The notes beneath the pieces were generated by a model that saw only the letters and a list, made by a program, of their open reading frames with translations, did not search any database and was not told the DNA's origin. 64,000 nt of DNA, taken from assembly GCF_029893635.1 (NCBI RefSeq), contig NZ_JARXYR010000002.1, positions 4,501,001 through 4,565,000 of the forward strand. Reading direction: 5' to 3'. This DNA comes from Variovorax sp. TBS-050B. GTDB taxonomy: Bacteria > Pseudomonadota > Gammaproteobacteria > Burkholderiales > Burkholderiaceae_C. Below are positions 1,531-50,672 of the stretch, piece after piece. The stretch's first letter is position 1. Each line of letters starts with the position of its first letter. Made by a program: the position numbers and the translations under genes.

Positions 1531-1956
1531 TCAGTGGACGGCTTCCGTGGCGGCTGCGGCGCTGCCGCTCTTCGCGCCATGCTTGGCCTTGTAGTCGCTC
1601 ACTGCGGCCTTGATCGCGTCTTCCGCGAGGATGGAGCAGTGGATCTTGACCGGCGGCAGCGCCAGCTCTTCGGCGATCTGCGCGTTCTTGAGCGCAGCCG
1701 CTTCGTCGAGCGTCTTGCCCTTGACCCATTCGGTCACGAGCGAGGACGAGGCGATGGCCGAGCCGCAGCCGTAGGTCTTGAAGCGCGCATCTTCGATCAC
1801 GCCGGTTTCGGGGTTGACCTTGATCTGCAGCTTCATGACGTCGCCGCAGGCCGGCGCGCCGACCATGCCGGTGCCGACCGAATCGTCGCCCTTTTCGAAG
1901 GAGCCGACGTTGCGCGGGTTCTCGTAGTGGTCGATGACCTTGGAAGAATATGCCAT
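1531..1956 (-). CDS. iscU: IscU, Fe-S cluster assembly scaffold
   Basis: Scaffold on which IscS-derived sulfur and iron form [2Fe-2S] clusters. The 141-aa protein has ligands C37 (APACGD, with D39), C64 (TYGCGS) and C107 (KIHCS). The LPPVKIHCS segment contains the LPPVK motif bound by HscA, so this is a true Isc scaffold and not SufU. The C-terminus is extended by a low-complexity Ala/Ser tail after YKAKHG. Lies 50 bp downstream of iscS. Confidence 0.97.
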
Positions 1957-2006
1957 GGTGTACCTCTCAAACTTTGTTCAATCGTGGAGCTCGTTGGCGG
2001 CCTGCG

Positions 2007-3227
2007 TCAGTGCGCCGACCACTGGATCGTGCTGATGTCGACGCCGTCCTGGAACATCTCCCACAGCGGGCTCAGTTCGCGCAGCTTCGCCACGTTGTGC
2101 TTGATGGTCGAGACGGCGTAGTCGATTTCTTCTTCGGTCGTGAAGCGGCCGATGGTCATGCGCAGGCTGCTGTGCGCCAGTTCGTCGCTGCGGCCGAGGG
2201 CGCGCAGCACGTAGCTCGGCTCCAGGCTGGCCGAGGTGCAGGCCGAACCCGACGACACCGCCAGGCCCTTGATGCCCATGATCAGCGACTCGCCCTCGAC
2301 GTAGTTGAAGCTCATGTTGAGGTTGTGCGGCACGCGGCGCTCGAGGTCGCCATTGATGAACACCTGCTCCACGTCCTTCAGGCCGTCGAGCAGTCGCTTC
2401 TGCAGGCGTGCGGCCTTGGCGATGTCTTCCTTCATCTCGAGCCTGGCGATGCGGAAGGCCTCGCCCATGCCCACGATCTGGTGCGTGGGCAGCGTGCCCG
2501 AGCGCATGCCGCGCTCATGGCCGCCGCCGTGCATCTGCGCCTCGAGCCGCACGCGCGGCTTGCGGCGCACGTACAGCGCGCCGATGCCCTTGGGGCCGTA
2601 GGTCTTGTGCGAAGCCAGGCTCATGAGGTCGATCGGCAGCTTGGCGATGTCGATCTCGACCTTGCCGGTGGCCTGGGCCGCGTCGACGTGGAAGATCACG
2701 CCCTTCTCGCGGCAGGCATTGCCCAGCGCGGCCATGTCCTGAATGACGCCGATCTCGTTGTTCACGAACATCACGCTCGCGAGGATGGTGTCGGGACGGA
2801 TCGCGGCCTTGAACTTCTCGAGGTCGAGCAGGCCGTTTTCCTCGACGTCCATGTACGTGACCTCGAAGCCCTGGCGCTCGAGCTCGCGCATGGTGTCGAG
2901 CACCGCCTTGTGCTCGGTCTTCACCGTGATGAGGTGCTTGCCCTTGCCCTTGTAGAAATGCGCCGCGCCCTTGAGCGCGAGGTTGTTCGACTCGGTCGCG
3001 CCGGAGGTCCAGACGATCTCGCGCGGATCGGCGCCGATGAGCTCGGCCACGTAGCCGCGTGCCTTCTCGACCGCCTCTTCAGCCTCCCAGCCCCAGGCGT
3101 GGCTGCGCGACGCCGGGTTGCCGAAGTGATCGCGCAACCAGGGAATCATGGCGTCGACCACGCGCGGGTCGACCGGCGTGGTGGCGCCGTAGTCGAGATA
3201 GATCGGGAAATGAGGAGTTACGTCCAT
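2007..3227 (-). CDS. iscS: IscS, cysteine desulfurase
   Basis: PLP enzyme that removes sulfur from L-cysteine as an enzyme persulfide and passes it to IscU and other acceptors. It has 406 aa, normal for group I desulfurases. The PLP lysine is K208 in [10 protein letters not shown] and the mobile catalytic cysteine is C330 in [10 protein letters not shown], the long flexible loop of IscS. Separated from iscR by about 108 bp holding a strong hairpin, and from iscU by 50 bp. Confidence 0.97.
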
Positions 3228-46155: not shown

Positions 46156-46746
46156 TCAGGCCTTTCGCAACGGTGTGACCTTGGTCCGCGCGGCGGCGGC
46201 CGGTGCCGCGGCGGGAGCGCCCATGGCCGCCTTGAGCGCATCGCGCGCACGTGCCAGGCGCGACAGCACGGTGCCCGGTGCGATGTCGAGCGCCTCGGCC
46301 ATCCGGGCCGTGGGCATGTCGTCGAAATAGAAGAGCACCAGCACCTCGCGGTGGATCGGCGCCAGCCGGGCGAGCGCCTTGACCACGTCGAGCCGGTCGT
46401 CGAGGCATGCGTCGTCGGCCGGCCGGTCGTGCACCGCCTCGCCGTCTTCACCGCCTTCGAGCGGCACGGTGCCGGGCGTGAGGTGCCGCACGGCGCAGCG
46501 CCGCATGATCCGGAACAGCCAGGCCCGCGCCAGCGCGGCATCGCGCAACTGGGCGCGGTGTTTCCAGGCCAGCGTGAAGCAGTCCTGCACCACGTCCTCG
46601 GCGACGGCGCGCGAGCCCGTGAGCGCCCATGCGCTGCGCAACAGGAAGCGGTAGTGCTCGCGCACCCACTGGTTGTAGCGCGCCTCGGCATCGAGGAATG
46701 GCAGGAACATGCGTACAAGAGCGCCGGATCCGCCACCCGATTCCAT
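46156..46746 (-). CDS. ECF-type RNA polymerase sigma factor
   Basis: Extracytoplasmic-function sigma factor of 196 aa with region 2 (YNQWVREHYRFLLRSAWALTGSRAVAEDVVQDCFTLAWKH) and region 4 (LARLAPIHREVLVLFYFDDMPTARMAEALDIAPGTVLSRLARARDAL). The start at 46746 (MESGGGS) is the first ATG; TTG at 46758 and ATG at 46710 are alternatives. It heads a same-strand set sigma, anti-sigma, sorA, sorB, so it probably drives the sulfite dehydrogenase genes and itself. Confidence 0.9.
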   Translation of the reverse strand: MESGGGSGALVRMFLPFLDAEARYNQWVREHYRFLLRSAWALTGSRAVAEDVVQDCFTLAWKHRAQLRDAALARAWLFRIMRRCAVRHLTPGTVPLEGGEDGEAVHDRPADDACLDDRLDVVKALARLAPIHREVLVLFYFDDMPTARMAEALDIAPGTVLSRLARARDALKAAMGAPAAAPAAAARTKVTPLRKA

Positions 46747-46790
46747 CGCCTGAAGCAATTTCTTCTAAGCGTTTACCCGCGGACACATCC

Positions 46791-48153
<1,363 letters not shown>

Positions 48154-48168
48154 GAAAACCTCCGGATG

Positions 48169-48203
48169 AAAAACAAGAAACCCAGCTGCCAGAGCTGGGT
48201 TTC
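48169..48203 (-). terminator. Attenuator terminator in the hom leader
   Basis: Perfect 11-bp stem GAAACCCAGCT/AGCTGGGTTTC (arms 48193-48203 and 48177-48187) with a five-base loop, followed on the minus strand by TTGTTTTT. This is a canonical intrinsic terminator placed between the leader peptide and the hom ribosome site (GGAGG at 48159-48163). Termination here would stop transcription before hom. Confidence 0.85.
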
Positions 48204-48231
48204 ATTCATTCGGGGGAGAGCGAGCGATACA

Positions 48232-48275
48232 CCAGGTGGCTGCCGAAACGGCCACCTGCGCGTGCTCAGGTGGCC
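48232..48275 (-). promoter_or_regulatory. Alternative hairpins of the hom attenuator
   Basis: In transcript order: segment 1 GGCCACCTG (48267-48275, overlapping the leader stop codon), segment 2 CAGGTGGCC (48250-48258) and segment 3 GCCACCTGG (48232-48240). Segment 2 can pair perfectly with 1 (9 bp) or with 3 (8 bp), the mutually exclusive pairing expected of an attenuator. How the 2:3 pair blocks the terminator stem at 48169-48203 is not resolved by eye. Confidence 0.65.
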
Positions 48276-48397
48276 GCGGTGGTAATGGTGGTAATCATTC
48301 GTGCAACCCGTGCCCCGTCCACCCGCGCGATGGCGGGCGACAGCGTGCGCGCCGTGGCGGCTGCGCGGTCGGTGGCGGGGAAGAGATGGCACGACAT
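48266..48397 (-). CDS. Thr/Ile-rich leader peptide of hom
   Basis: Reading frame of 43 codons from the ATG at 48397 to TGA at 48266, ending MITTITTAAT. Seven of the last ten residues are Thr or Ile, the end products of the pathway that begins with homoserine. Its position before alternative hairpins, a U-tract terminator and hom is that of a classical leader peptide such as E. coli ThrL. The start 48397 is favoured because a -10-like TACACT lies 10 bases upstream (leaderless mRNA); the internal ATG at 48298 has no ribosome site but would give a 10-aa peptide. Confidence 0.75.
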   Translation of the reverse strand: MSCHLFPATDRAAATARTLSPAIARVDGARVARMITTITTAAT

Positions 48398-48407
48398 GAA
48401 GGGGCGC

Positions 48408-48413
48408 AGTGTA
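48408..48413 (-). promoter_or_regulatory. -10-like element of the hom leader
   Basis: TACACT on the minus strand, ten bases before the leader peptide ATG at 48397; transcription would start at or near that ATG. No convincing -35 is seen 16-18 bp upstream in this very GC-rich stretch, so the call is tentative. The remaining spacer up to 48559 shows only the upstream region and ribosome site (AGGAGG) of the plus-strand gene at 48560. Confidence 0.4.
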
Positions 48414-48559
48414 CAGGAGCCGGCGCGCCCCGCTGGGCCGGGCCGGGCCGGGCGGTGCCGCGTCCTGCCTTCGGCCACAAGGGGAGCAGGCCTACAGCAC
48501 GCCGCCGCCCCGCGGCCTAGGGTGGTGGGCAAAGAACTGCACAGCCAGGAGGCCGCACC

Positions 48560-48964
48560 ATGAAGAACTTCGTCCTAGAGCCGCGCATGCGCGCCACCAT
48601 CGGCGGCGCTTTCTATCCCTCGGGCTACTCGATGGTGATGTTTCCGAACGCGGAAGACGCCAACCGCATCGGCCATCGGCTGATCGAGAAAGGCGTGAGC
48701 GGCGACGAGATCTACCTGCTTCCGGCCGCAACCGTGCTCTCGGAGATCACGCCCACGGTCAGGGAATCCGACGATCCGCTGCCCTCGGCCGGCACCGACG
48801 CCGCCACCGTGCGGGCCTACACCAAGCTCGCGCGCGAAGGCCACACCGGCCTGCTCGTGAAGACGAAGAACGAGGAGGAAGCCAACCGCCTGATGGAAGA
48901 GGTGCGCACCGTGCCCTACTCCATCGCGCAGCGCTACCGCACGCTGGTGATCGAGGACCTCTGA
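48560..48964 (+). CDS. Conserved hypothetical protein
   Basis: Function not recognised. The 134-aa soluble, acidic protein has no signal peptide or membrane helix. The region FPNAEDANRIGHRLIEKGVSGDEIYLL and the repeated pattern NEEEANRLMEEV look like the alpha-beta units of a ferredoxin-like fold, and EGHTGLLVKTKN sits between them. AGGAGG lies seven bases before the ATG, so it is a real, well-translated gene. Single-gene unit; convergent with the antiporter gene 13 bp away. Confidence 0.8.
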   Translation: MKNFVLEPRMRATIGGAFYPSGYSMVMFPNAEDANRIGHRLIEKGVSGDEIYLLPAATVLSEITPTVRESDDPLPSAGTDAATVRAYTKLAREGHTGLLVKTKNEEEANRLMEEVRTVPYSIAQRYRTLVIEDL

Positions 48965-48977
48965 ACCCGCGCCGGCC

Positions 48978-50672
48978 TCAGGCCGGCACCGCCGCGGCGC
49001 GCCGCACCACGTCGCGCGCCATCGCCTGCGCGAGCTCGTGCTCGCCGAGGAAGACCGTGGCGGCCGTCTCCTGCGCGAGCAGCCGCGCCTCCTCCTCGTT
49101 GTGGCTGCGCACCACCGTCTCGATCGACGGATTCAGCGTGCGGGCCGTCTCCATCATCTGGCGCACGTTCATCGCATCGGCCACCGCCACCACGAGCACG
49201 CGCGCCCGCGCGACATGCGCCTGGATCAGCACCGCCGGATCGGCCGCGTCGCCCCAGACCGCGGCCACGCCGGCCTCGCGCAGCCGGCCGACCAGTTCGC
49301 GGTTCTGCTCGGCCACCACGTAGGGCACGTCGTGCGCCTCGAGCTCGGCCGCGATGCGGCGGCCGACGCGGCCGTAGCCCACCAGCACCACCTGGCGCGA
49401 GAGGAAGCGCGCCTCGGTGCTCGTCGGCAGCTCCGCCAGCGGATGGTCGCGTGCATCGAGCCCGCGTGCGAACGAGAGGCGTGCATGCAGCCATTTCTGC
49501 ATCGGCGCGATCAGGCTGAACCAGAGCGGATTGGTGGCGATGGAGATCAGCGCGCCCGCGAGGATCAGGCTCTGGCCCTCGACCGGCATCAGGCCGAGCG
49601 ACAGGCCGAGCCCCGCGAGGATGAACGAGAACTCCCCGATCTGCGCGAGGCTCGCGCTCACCGTGAGCGCGGTGCCCAGCGGATAGCGCAGCGCCAGCAC
49701 CAGCGCACAGGCGGCGACCGACTTGCCGAGCACGATCACCGCCACCACCGCCAGCACCTGCAGCGGCCGCTCGATGAGCACCGACGGATCGAACAGCATG
49801 CCGACGGAGACGAAGAACAGCACTGCGAAGGCATCGCGCAGCGGCAGCGATTCCTGCGCCGCGCGGTGGCTGAATTCGGATTCGCGCATCACCATGCCCG
49901 CGAAGAAGGCGCCGAGTGCGAACGACACGCCGAACAGCGCCGCCGAGGCGAAGGCGATGCTGACCGCGGCCGCGATCACGCACAGCGTGAACAGCTCGCG
50001 CGAGCCGGTGCGCGTGACCTGCCACAGGATCCACGGAAAGGCCCGCCGCCCCACCACGAGCATCAGCGCCACGAAGCCCCCCACCTGCAGCAGCGTGAGG
50101 CCGAGCGTCTGCCACAGCGGATCGGCCGCTTCCTCCGCCCTGCCCCCCAGCGCACCGGCCAGCGGCGGCATCAGCACCAGCACGAGCACCATGGCGAGGT
50201 CTTCCACCACCAGCCAGCCGACCGCGATGCGGCCCGTGAACGAATCGAGGATGCCGAGGCTTTCGAGCGCGCGCAGCAGCACCACCGTGCTCGCCACCGA
50301 CAGCGCGAGCCCGAAGACCAGCGCCGCGCCCCACGACCAGCCCCACCAGAGCGCGAGTGCGCCGCCGAGCAGCGTGGCCACCGTGATCTGCGCCAGCGCA
50401 CCGGGCAGCGCGATCCGGCGCACCGCGAGCAGGTCGTCGAGCGAGAAATGCAGGCCGACGCCGAACATCAGCAGCATCACGCCGATCTCCGCGAGCTGCG
50501 CCGCGATGGCGCCGTCGGCCACGAAGCCGGGCGTGAACGGACCGATGATCACGCCCGCGAGCAGGTAGCCCACGAGCGCCGGCAGCCGCAGCCGCGCCGC
50601 GAGAAAACCCAGGACGAGCGCGAGCCCGAGGCCCGCGGCAATGGTGCTGATCAGGGAGACGCTGTGGGGCAT
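48978..50672 (-). CDS. CPA2 monovalent cation:proton antiporter, KefB/YbaL-type
   Basis: Membrane antiporter of 564 aa with about 12 helices (residues 5-390; motifs GYLLAGVIIGPFTPGF, GLALSVASTVVLLRALE and SLAQIGEFSFILAGLG). A cytoplasmic RCK/TrkA-N domain follows from about residue 415, with the nucleotide loop VVLVGYGRVGRRIAAELEAHD. YbaL/KefB-type systems exchange K+ or Na+ for protons. No KefG-like partner is adjacent. The start at 50672 (MPHSVSLISTIAAGLGLAL) places the first helix at the N-terminus. Confidence 0.9.
   Translation of the reverse strand: MPHSVSLISTIAAGLGLALVLGFLAARLRLPALVGYLLAGVIIGPFTPGFVADGAIAAQLAEIGVMLLMFGVGLHFSLDDLLAVRRIALPGALAQITVATLLGGALALWWGWSWGAALVFGLALSVASTVVLLRALESLGILDSFTGRIAVGWLVVEDLAMVLVLVLMPPLAGALGGRAEEAADPLWQTLGLTLLQVGGFVALMLVVGRRAFPWILWQVTRTGSRELFTLCVIAAAVSIAFASAALFGVSFALGAFFAGMVMRESEFSHRAAQESLPLRDAFAVLFFVSVGMLFDPSVLIERPLQVLAVVAVIVLGKSVAACALVLALRYPLGTALTVSASLAQIGEFSFILAGLGLSLGLMPVEGQSLILAGALISIATNPLWFSLIAPMQKWLHARLSFARGLDARDHPLAELPTSTEARFLSRQVVLVGYGRVGRRIAAELEAHDVPYVVAEQNRELVGRLREAGVAAVWGDAADPAVLIQAHVARARVLVVAVADAMNVRQMMETARTLNPSIETVVRSHNEEEARLLAQETAATVFLGEHELAQAMARDVVRRAAAVPA

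Follow-up and report, generated by a model that had tools for sequence, protein, structure and literature searches.

The window, i.e., the whole 64,000-nucleotide stretch of Variovorax sp. TBS-050B DNA that was analyzed, contains a gene for a homoserine dehydrogenase (hom) and, upstream of it, a core element at 48304-48172 on the minus strand. The features of the locus, all on the minus strand and in window coordinates, are as follows.

48408..48413 (-): -10-like box TACACT, read directly; the associated start site is a prediction.
48266..48397 (-): leader frame of 43 codons plus stop, probably leaderless, MSCHLFPATDRAAATARTLSPAIARVDGARVARMITTITTAAT; its in-frame start is present in 87 of 87 elements.
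48266..48298 (-): control codons ATG ATT ACC ACC ATT ACC ACC GCG GCC ACC TGA, from residue counts in 87 elements.
48267..48276 (-): segment 1, CGGCCACCUG, overlapping the leader stop codon; partner of segment 2 (pairing tests).
48249..48258 (-): segment 2, CAGGUGGCCG; partner of segment 1 or segment 3 (pairing tests).
48232..48243 (-): segment 3, GCAGCCACCUGG; partner of segment 2 or segment 4 (covariation and swap tests).
48185..48198 (-): segment 4, CCAGCUCUGGCAGC, comprising the terminator 5' arm, the loop, and the first bases of the 3' arm; predicted antiterminator partner of segment 3 (covariation and swap tests).
48177..48203 (-): intrinsic terminator with a perfect 11-bp stem and a 5-nt loop, followed by an interrupted U-tract (sequence, folding, alignment).
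48159..48163 (-): GGAGG ribosome-binding site of hom, read directly and recurring in the alignment.
46791..48153 (-): hom2, homoserine dehydrogenase paralogue with a frame interrupted in the assembly (ORFs, Pfam, genus orthologues).

An earlier, sequence-only reading of this DNA had proposed a leader-peptide attenuator here, and the elements it listed are present. The 43-codon frame at 48397-48266 (-) ends in MITTITTAAT-stop, and ten bases separate its ATG (48397) from the TACACT box (48413-48408). The middle segment CAGGUGGCCG (48258-48249) is complementary both to the preceding CGGCCACCUG (48276-48267) and to the following GCCACCUG. The perfect 11-bp terminator stem occupies 48203-48177, with the U-tract interrupted, and GGAGG (48163-48159) precedes the hom ATG at 48153. 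In the folding check that had been proposed, the 261-nt leader folds at -111.7 kcal/mol, compared to -94.8 ± 4.6 kcal/mol in dinucleotide shuffles (z -3.67), and none of the 200 shuffles folded as low.

The leader had also been placed in front of the hom start codon. The element does precede hom, but the gene is a second paralogue and its frame is broken in the assembly, the initial ~50 codons (from 48153) being in another frame than the remainder (46791-47981). The register break lies between 48153 and 47981, near the 5' end, and the genus orthologues are uninterrupted. Either an error in sequencing or recent loss of function would explain the break. In the window copy, the open frame spans 427 aa; all of the other 61 genus orthologues reach at least 468 aa, except for one of 346 aa whose match reaches the contig end. 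In total, hom2 (at least 71% identity) was found in 62 of 101 genomes of the genus. The same genome encodes a further hom with 55% identity to that of the window. Judged by eye, this copy has an aminotransferase-like frame just upstream and a threonine-synthase-like frame downstream (the Pfam scan at that locus covered hom only). We conclude that the other hom is the canonical copy and that the window gene is the second paralogue, hom2. Two neighboring frames were recorded as well: a 134-aa divergent frame across the leader region from hom2, at 48560-48964 (+), without a Pfam match, and a frame for a sigma-70-family factor (region 2 and 4, Pfam) at 46156-46758 (-), which starts ~33 nt past hom2 on the same strand.

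The distribution of the element was analyzed with a covariance model of the core, built with helix 2:3 and the terminator only. The core precedes hom2 in all 62 genus orthologues, and the canonical hom of the same genome lacks it by this model. Within the family, the element was detected at E<1e-17 in 46 of 399 genomes, representing 17 of 141 genera. Matches at E<=0.01 occurred in 58 family genomes; 12 of these, at 1e-6 or worse, were not counted as carriers. The leader was absent at the weak-match places of three of these 12 genomes (L224, L225, L226) and at a second weak place in one carrier (L227). In a search of 399 genomes of the order, 19 genomes outside the family matched, with a best E of 3.3e-6; hom was not found near these matches, which were set aside. 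Of the best 80 named hom loci, four carry the element (Variovorax sp. YR216, two Acidovorax, and a Giesbergeria MAG), and the next best E among these 80 is 0.0098. A DNA pattern for MITTITT occurred in 13 of 399 family genomes and its reversed version in none; hom adjoins nine of the 13 places and is absent beside four.

For the comparison, we used a hand-chosen set of 87 elements from 17 genera, of which 45 come from the 62 genus loci and 42 from elsewhere, with near-identical copies dropped; all pass E<1e-8 and 85 are distinct. The core nucleotides are strongly conserved. Strong matches occur once per genome, and hom lies downstream in 84 of the 87 elements, the remaining three belonging to one genus. 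The Ile/Thr codons, the stop, the segments, the terminator, and the spacing between -10 box and ATG recur in the genus and in 16 other family genera, which is the conservation that the sequence-only reading had called for.

All 87 elements contain a TAnnCT box 6-10 nt ahead of an ATG that shares the frame of the control codons with no intervening stop, and the frames measure 31-50 codons, with 18 different lengths. The box is TACACT in 76 elements and another TAnnCT in 11. When the frame requirement was omitted, the scan returned one out-of-frame candidate (GTG, L161) and one second in-frame start (L006). The ATG is preceded by C in 83 of 87 elements, and the last three bases are all pyrimidines in 60 of 87; the A of the leader ATG is therefore likely the first base of the transcript. 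The -35 box is weak, with 22 of 87 elements within 2 mismatches of TTGACA and about 12 expected. Because the box spacing and the in-frame ATG are maintained in 87 of 87 elements over 18 lengths, the leader frame is likely translated leaderless, as had been suggested from the window. In the N-terminal part, differences by codon position amounted to 702/427/526, 150/166/99, and 29/36/46 in three length groups, i.e., no excess of change at third positions was found in these codons, and this part of the peptide is not conserved as protein. Thus, we read it as a spacer whose frame weighs more than its sequence. A hairpin within the N-terminal codons, plausible by eye, was discarded since its folding in 82 sequences did not surpass that of shuffles (mean z -0.24).

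The last 11 codons are rich in Ile and Thr in all 87 elements. Counted back from the stop, the commonest residues are Met at -10 (78 of 87), Ile at -9 (76), Thr at -8 (70), and Thr at -7 (76); position -6 is Ile in 65 elements or Met in 21, and position -5 is Thr in 82. Codons -10 to -7 include Met, Ile, and Thr together in 79 of 87 elements and at least two of them in every element. Two divergent leaders (L208 and L211) have no Met among the last 11 codons. Codon choice in this stretch is narrow: ATT accounts for 147 of 152 Ile codons, ACC for 352 of 374 Thr codons, and CGA for 69 of 71 Arg codons at -11, and the corresponding values in 59 downstream hom frames are 149 of 1053, 573 of 1180, and 56 of 1906. 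A related observation is that GCACGAATGATT (48293-48304 (-)), located before and within the control codons, is nearly invariant across the 87 elements; it uses codons unusual for the host genomes (CGA, ATT), a choice with no evident basis in pairing or codon supply.

The nearly invariant Met at -10 also raises the possibility that the sensor peptide is MITTITTAAT alone, started from the inner ATG at 48298, with the preceding 33 codons forming an untranslated leader. Such a peptide would resemble the short thrL, and the lack of a third-position excess in the upstream codons agrees with it. The upstream frame, however, stays open and in phase in all 87 elements across 18 different lengths, L208 and L211 would lack this start, and a good Shine-Dalgarno sequence was not seen ahead of the inner ATG in the window. 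We therefore regard a start at the inner ATG as improbable.

Three of the helices, namely 1:2, 2:3, and the terminator (4:5), can be recognized directly in the window. They are linked by a fourth, 3:4, in which segment 3 pairs with the terminator 5' arm and loop (GCxGCCA.CUGG with CCAG...UGGCyGC). Helix 1:2 is compatible with 3:4, and 2:3 with 4:5; 3:4 excludes 2:3. By their pairing potential, the segments are thus predicted to be an even chain of four mutually exclusive helices. In an alignment that was not fitted to 3:4, this helix pairs in 89.2% of 918 cells, compared to 2.7-46.0% when slid by 1-3 columns. Thirteen cells are changed on both sides, a number as high as which was reached by 0 of 500 shuffles. 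The count of pairs changed on both sides is three, which 28 of 500 shuffles reach; among the slid registers, one yields four pairs of this kind (4 cells) and a different one scores 0.048 for covariation, versus 0.044 for 3:4. At the middle pair x:y, 84 sequences divide into 15 with G-C, 7 with U-A, and 62 without pairing (A.A in the window).

Swap tests, whose permutations ignore kinship, gave -14.6 kcal/mol for a sequence's own 3:4 pairing versus -12.7 kcal/mol for swapped partners in 29 combinations (0 of 10000 permutations), the own pairing being weaker than the mean of the swapped ones in six of the 29. With one row per genus (17 genera), the values were -18.5 versus -16.2 kcal/mol (0 of 20000 permutations), and with two extra rows the own pairing was weaker than the swapped mean in one of 19. 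The same test gave 1/5000 for 1:2, 1574/5000 for 2:3, which hardly varies among the sequences, and 4736/5000 for the 1:4 control. For helix 1:2, 95.5% of 842 cells are paired; two of its pairs show changes on both sides, and 222 of 500 shuffles reach that number. The terminator is paired in 95.1% of 672 cells, here on an alignment that had been fitted to it. Four of 35 sequences keep an A in the terminator 5' arm though its terminator partner is now C, as expected if the arm also serves 3:4.

These pairings bear on how the switch would be wired. In a classical trp/thr-type attenuator, the stalled ribosome would cover segment 1, 2:3 would act as the antiterminator, and 1:2 would accompany termination. 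Helices 1:2 and 2:3 are indeed mutually exclusive, as in trp, segment 1 would be covered by a ribosome stalled at one of the later Thr codons (-5, -4), and the equilibrium fold with a complete terminator and no ribosome is 1:2 plus terminator. A 2:3 antiterminator overlapping the terminator, as in trp, was, however, not found: 2:3 ends before the terminator, which starts ~29 nt past segment 3, and without overlap 2:3 cannot block it directly. The sole pairing found that overlaps the terminator as an alternative is 3:4, which excludes 2:3. Furthermore, the first Ile/Thr codons would halt the ribosome before it reaches segment 1. Together, these observations render a trp-type wiring unlikely. 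The thrL-like attenuation suggested by the sequence-only reading is thus upheld by the comparison as far as the attenuator itself is concerned, but the wiring appears to be an even four-helix chain rather than a simple thrL or trp arrangement.

Ribosome positions were modeled on transcripts ending before the terminator 3' arm, with the edge of the ribosome set 12 nt beyond the first base in the A-site. As means of the 87 elements, stalls at codons -10 to -7 gave 1:2 at 0.85-0.89 and 3:4 at 0.78-0.81, and stalls at -5 to -1 gave 2:3 at 0.74-0.81 and 3:4 at 0.08-0.14; codon -6 was the turning point. In other words, a modeled edge before segment 1 leads to 1:2 and 3:4, and an edge inside segment 1 to 2:3. 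The first Ile/Thr codons therefore fall mostly into the antitermination zone. With footprints of 8-14 nt, the switch persisted in 34 sequences, its place shifting by at most 2 codons. Once the terminator is complete, the equilibrium favors termination at every ribosome position (0.96-0.99 in the window; means of 0.57-0.92 for the 87 elements). When the stop codon occupies the A-site and the footprint is at least 12 nt, 3:4 becomes available again (0.56-0.65), and the OFF state would be less tight. Without a ribosome and before the terminator is complete, 3:4 averages 0.49 (0.33 in the window). Since the finished terminator is the more stable structure, antitermination must be kinetic, and because of these three weak points the model needs kinetic trapping.

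Our main reading is that the element is a ribosome-mediated transcription attenuator through which hom2 transcription follows the supply of homoserine-derived amino acids (Thr, Ile, perhaps Met). We assign it a probability of roughly 70%. The element combines a short frame rich in codons of the pathway with a terminator whose 5' arm has an alternative pairing. The transcript would begin at the leader ATG or no more than a few bases away from it, and a ribosome could thus occupy the leaderless frame at once. The spacer of about 30 codons would give RNA polymerase a head start before the ribosome reaches Met-Ile-Thr-Thr-Ile-Thr-Thr. A stall on the first control codons, presumably caused by uncharged tRNA, would leave segment 1 free to form 1:2, and segment 3 would capture the terminator 5' arm in 3:4, turning hom2 ON. 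If the ribosome did not stall, it would cover segment 1, 2:3 would form and consume segment 3, the terminator would fold, and transcription would stop. This sequence of events would require that 3:4 forms before segment 5 emerges and that 2:3 forms before release at the stop codon. The signal would be charged tRNA, we infer, and the sensed set may include Met besides Thr and Ile. Met codons occur in Pasteurellales thr leaders.

The leader might instead act mainly in trans, as a small RNA or peptide, the terminator making its 3' end. The strong conservation of the core nucleotides would fit, and a leaderless trpL transcript of Sinorhizobium acts in trans according to excerpts of PMC7298713. The N-terminal part of the peptide is, however, not conserved as protein, the conserved parts would serve a cis switch, and each genome has one strong match, with hom downstream in 84 of 87 elements. 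An action mainly in trans is, in our estimate, very improbable.

We thus consider the conserved attenuator in front of hom2 to be real on comparative grounds, with its mechanism deduced from the model. If the reading is correct, it adds a betaproteobacterial attenuator for the threonine branch, uses a leaderless frame as a timed sensor, and places a hom paralogue in which no regulatory domain was recognized under RNA control. The topology predicts a response unlike that of trp upon failure of translation, and would allow a clean test of the way in which attenuator logic depends on segment number and stop-codon position. The helices are resolved well enough for reporter assays in harmless soil bacteria to be decisive. 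A more far-reaching version holds that an even-chain attenuator senses Met, Ile, and Thr via the leaderless frame, that failed leader translation means ON, and that RNA control replaces allosteric feedback for a hom paralogue without a recognizable ACT domain. We put this version forward tentatively, as somewhat less probable than its opposite; it is weakened by the low level of 3:4 in the absence of a ribosome before the terminator is complete (mean 0.49; window 0.33). To our knowledge, no even-chain attenuator has been described. The work of Vitreschak et al. 2004 reportedly covers gamma- and alphaproteobacteria.

The closest known counterpart is E. coli thrL (RF00506), likewise a Thr/Ile-rich leader peptide plus terminator ahead of a homoserine dehydrogenase gene. 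It precedes thrABC, whereas the element described here precedes a lone hom paralogue, is probably leaderless, has 31-50 codons, includes Met in the control stretch, and forms an even helix chain. No RF00506 (Thr_leader) match exceeded the cut-off in the window's genome and 20 relatives (0 of 21), in a search whose control exceeded it in one of 14 known genomes. Sub-threshold Thr_leader matches in eight of the 21 genomes, at places other than the element, were treated as chance. Within 47000-49000, no RF00506 match was found up to E 5, and nine Rfam matches at permissive E values all lay far under their cut-offs. The ACC bias of the leaders recalls E. coli thr, whose Thr codons are almost only ACC in the excerpted text of PMC1183508. 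With the E. coli trp attenuator, the element shares the principle that the ribosome position selects between alternative hairpins and an intrinsic terminator. In the same excerpts, trp has three helices, with 1:2 on the terminator side (PMC1183508); here there are four helices, 1:2 is on the antiterminator side, and the stop codon lies inside segment 1.

Corynebacterium ilvBNC (ilvB-II motif) has, in the parts of PMC10272879 and PMC11857589 consulted, leaders of lengths all divisible by three and a terminator, an antiterminator, and an anti-antiterminator. It shares the leader frame and the terminator/antiterminator architecture, and differs in its branched-chain amino acid codons, its occurrence in Actinobacteria, and its three hairpins. 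Leader transcripts starting at the start codon are described, again in excerpts, for Sinorhizobium trpL and for Streptomyces lividans thrL and metL (PMC7298713, PMC8079986), the thrL preceding thrS and containing two Thr codons (PMC8079986). The start at the ATG, predicted here, is alike, whereas the lineages and genes are others. Ribosome-mediated attenuation and leaderless leader peptides are thus already known. Searches of an open-access library listed no description of this element, nor of a hom or thr attenuator in Comamonadaceae. The sequence-only reading had suggested that a betaproteobacterial version with a leaderless peptide could be new; leaderless leader peptides in themselves have the precedents in Sinorhizobium and Streptomyces (PMC7298713, PMC8079986).

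In a quick tree of 109 hom proteins (32 with the element, 77 without), one branch, with an SH-aLRT of 94, divides the two sets from each other; 40 loci with the element had been considered, eight of which were omitted because the available protein was shorter than 300 aa or unusable, and several element-bearing branches are long. An ACT domain was detected in the canonical hom (L002; Pfam E 3.3e-11). It was not found in two element-bearing homologues (L008 and L185; Pfam up to E 0.1) or in the window hom2 fragment (up to E 0.001). In hom2, attenuation may replace feedback inhibition. In three genomes of one genus (L186, at about 1679-2023 (+), L187, and L209), the element precedes a 114-119-aa frame. 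No Pfam match was obtained for the two of these three frames that were scanned. The frame looks like the C-terminal portion of hom from a relative, with the catalytic domains missing, and is possibly a free-standing regulatory domain or a decaying gene.
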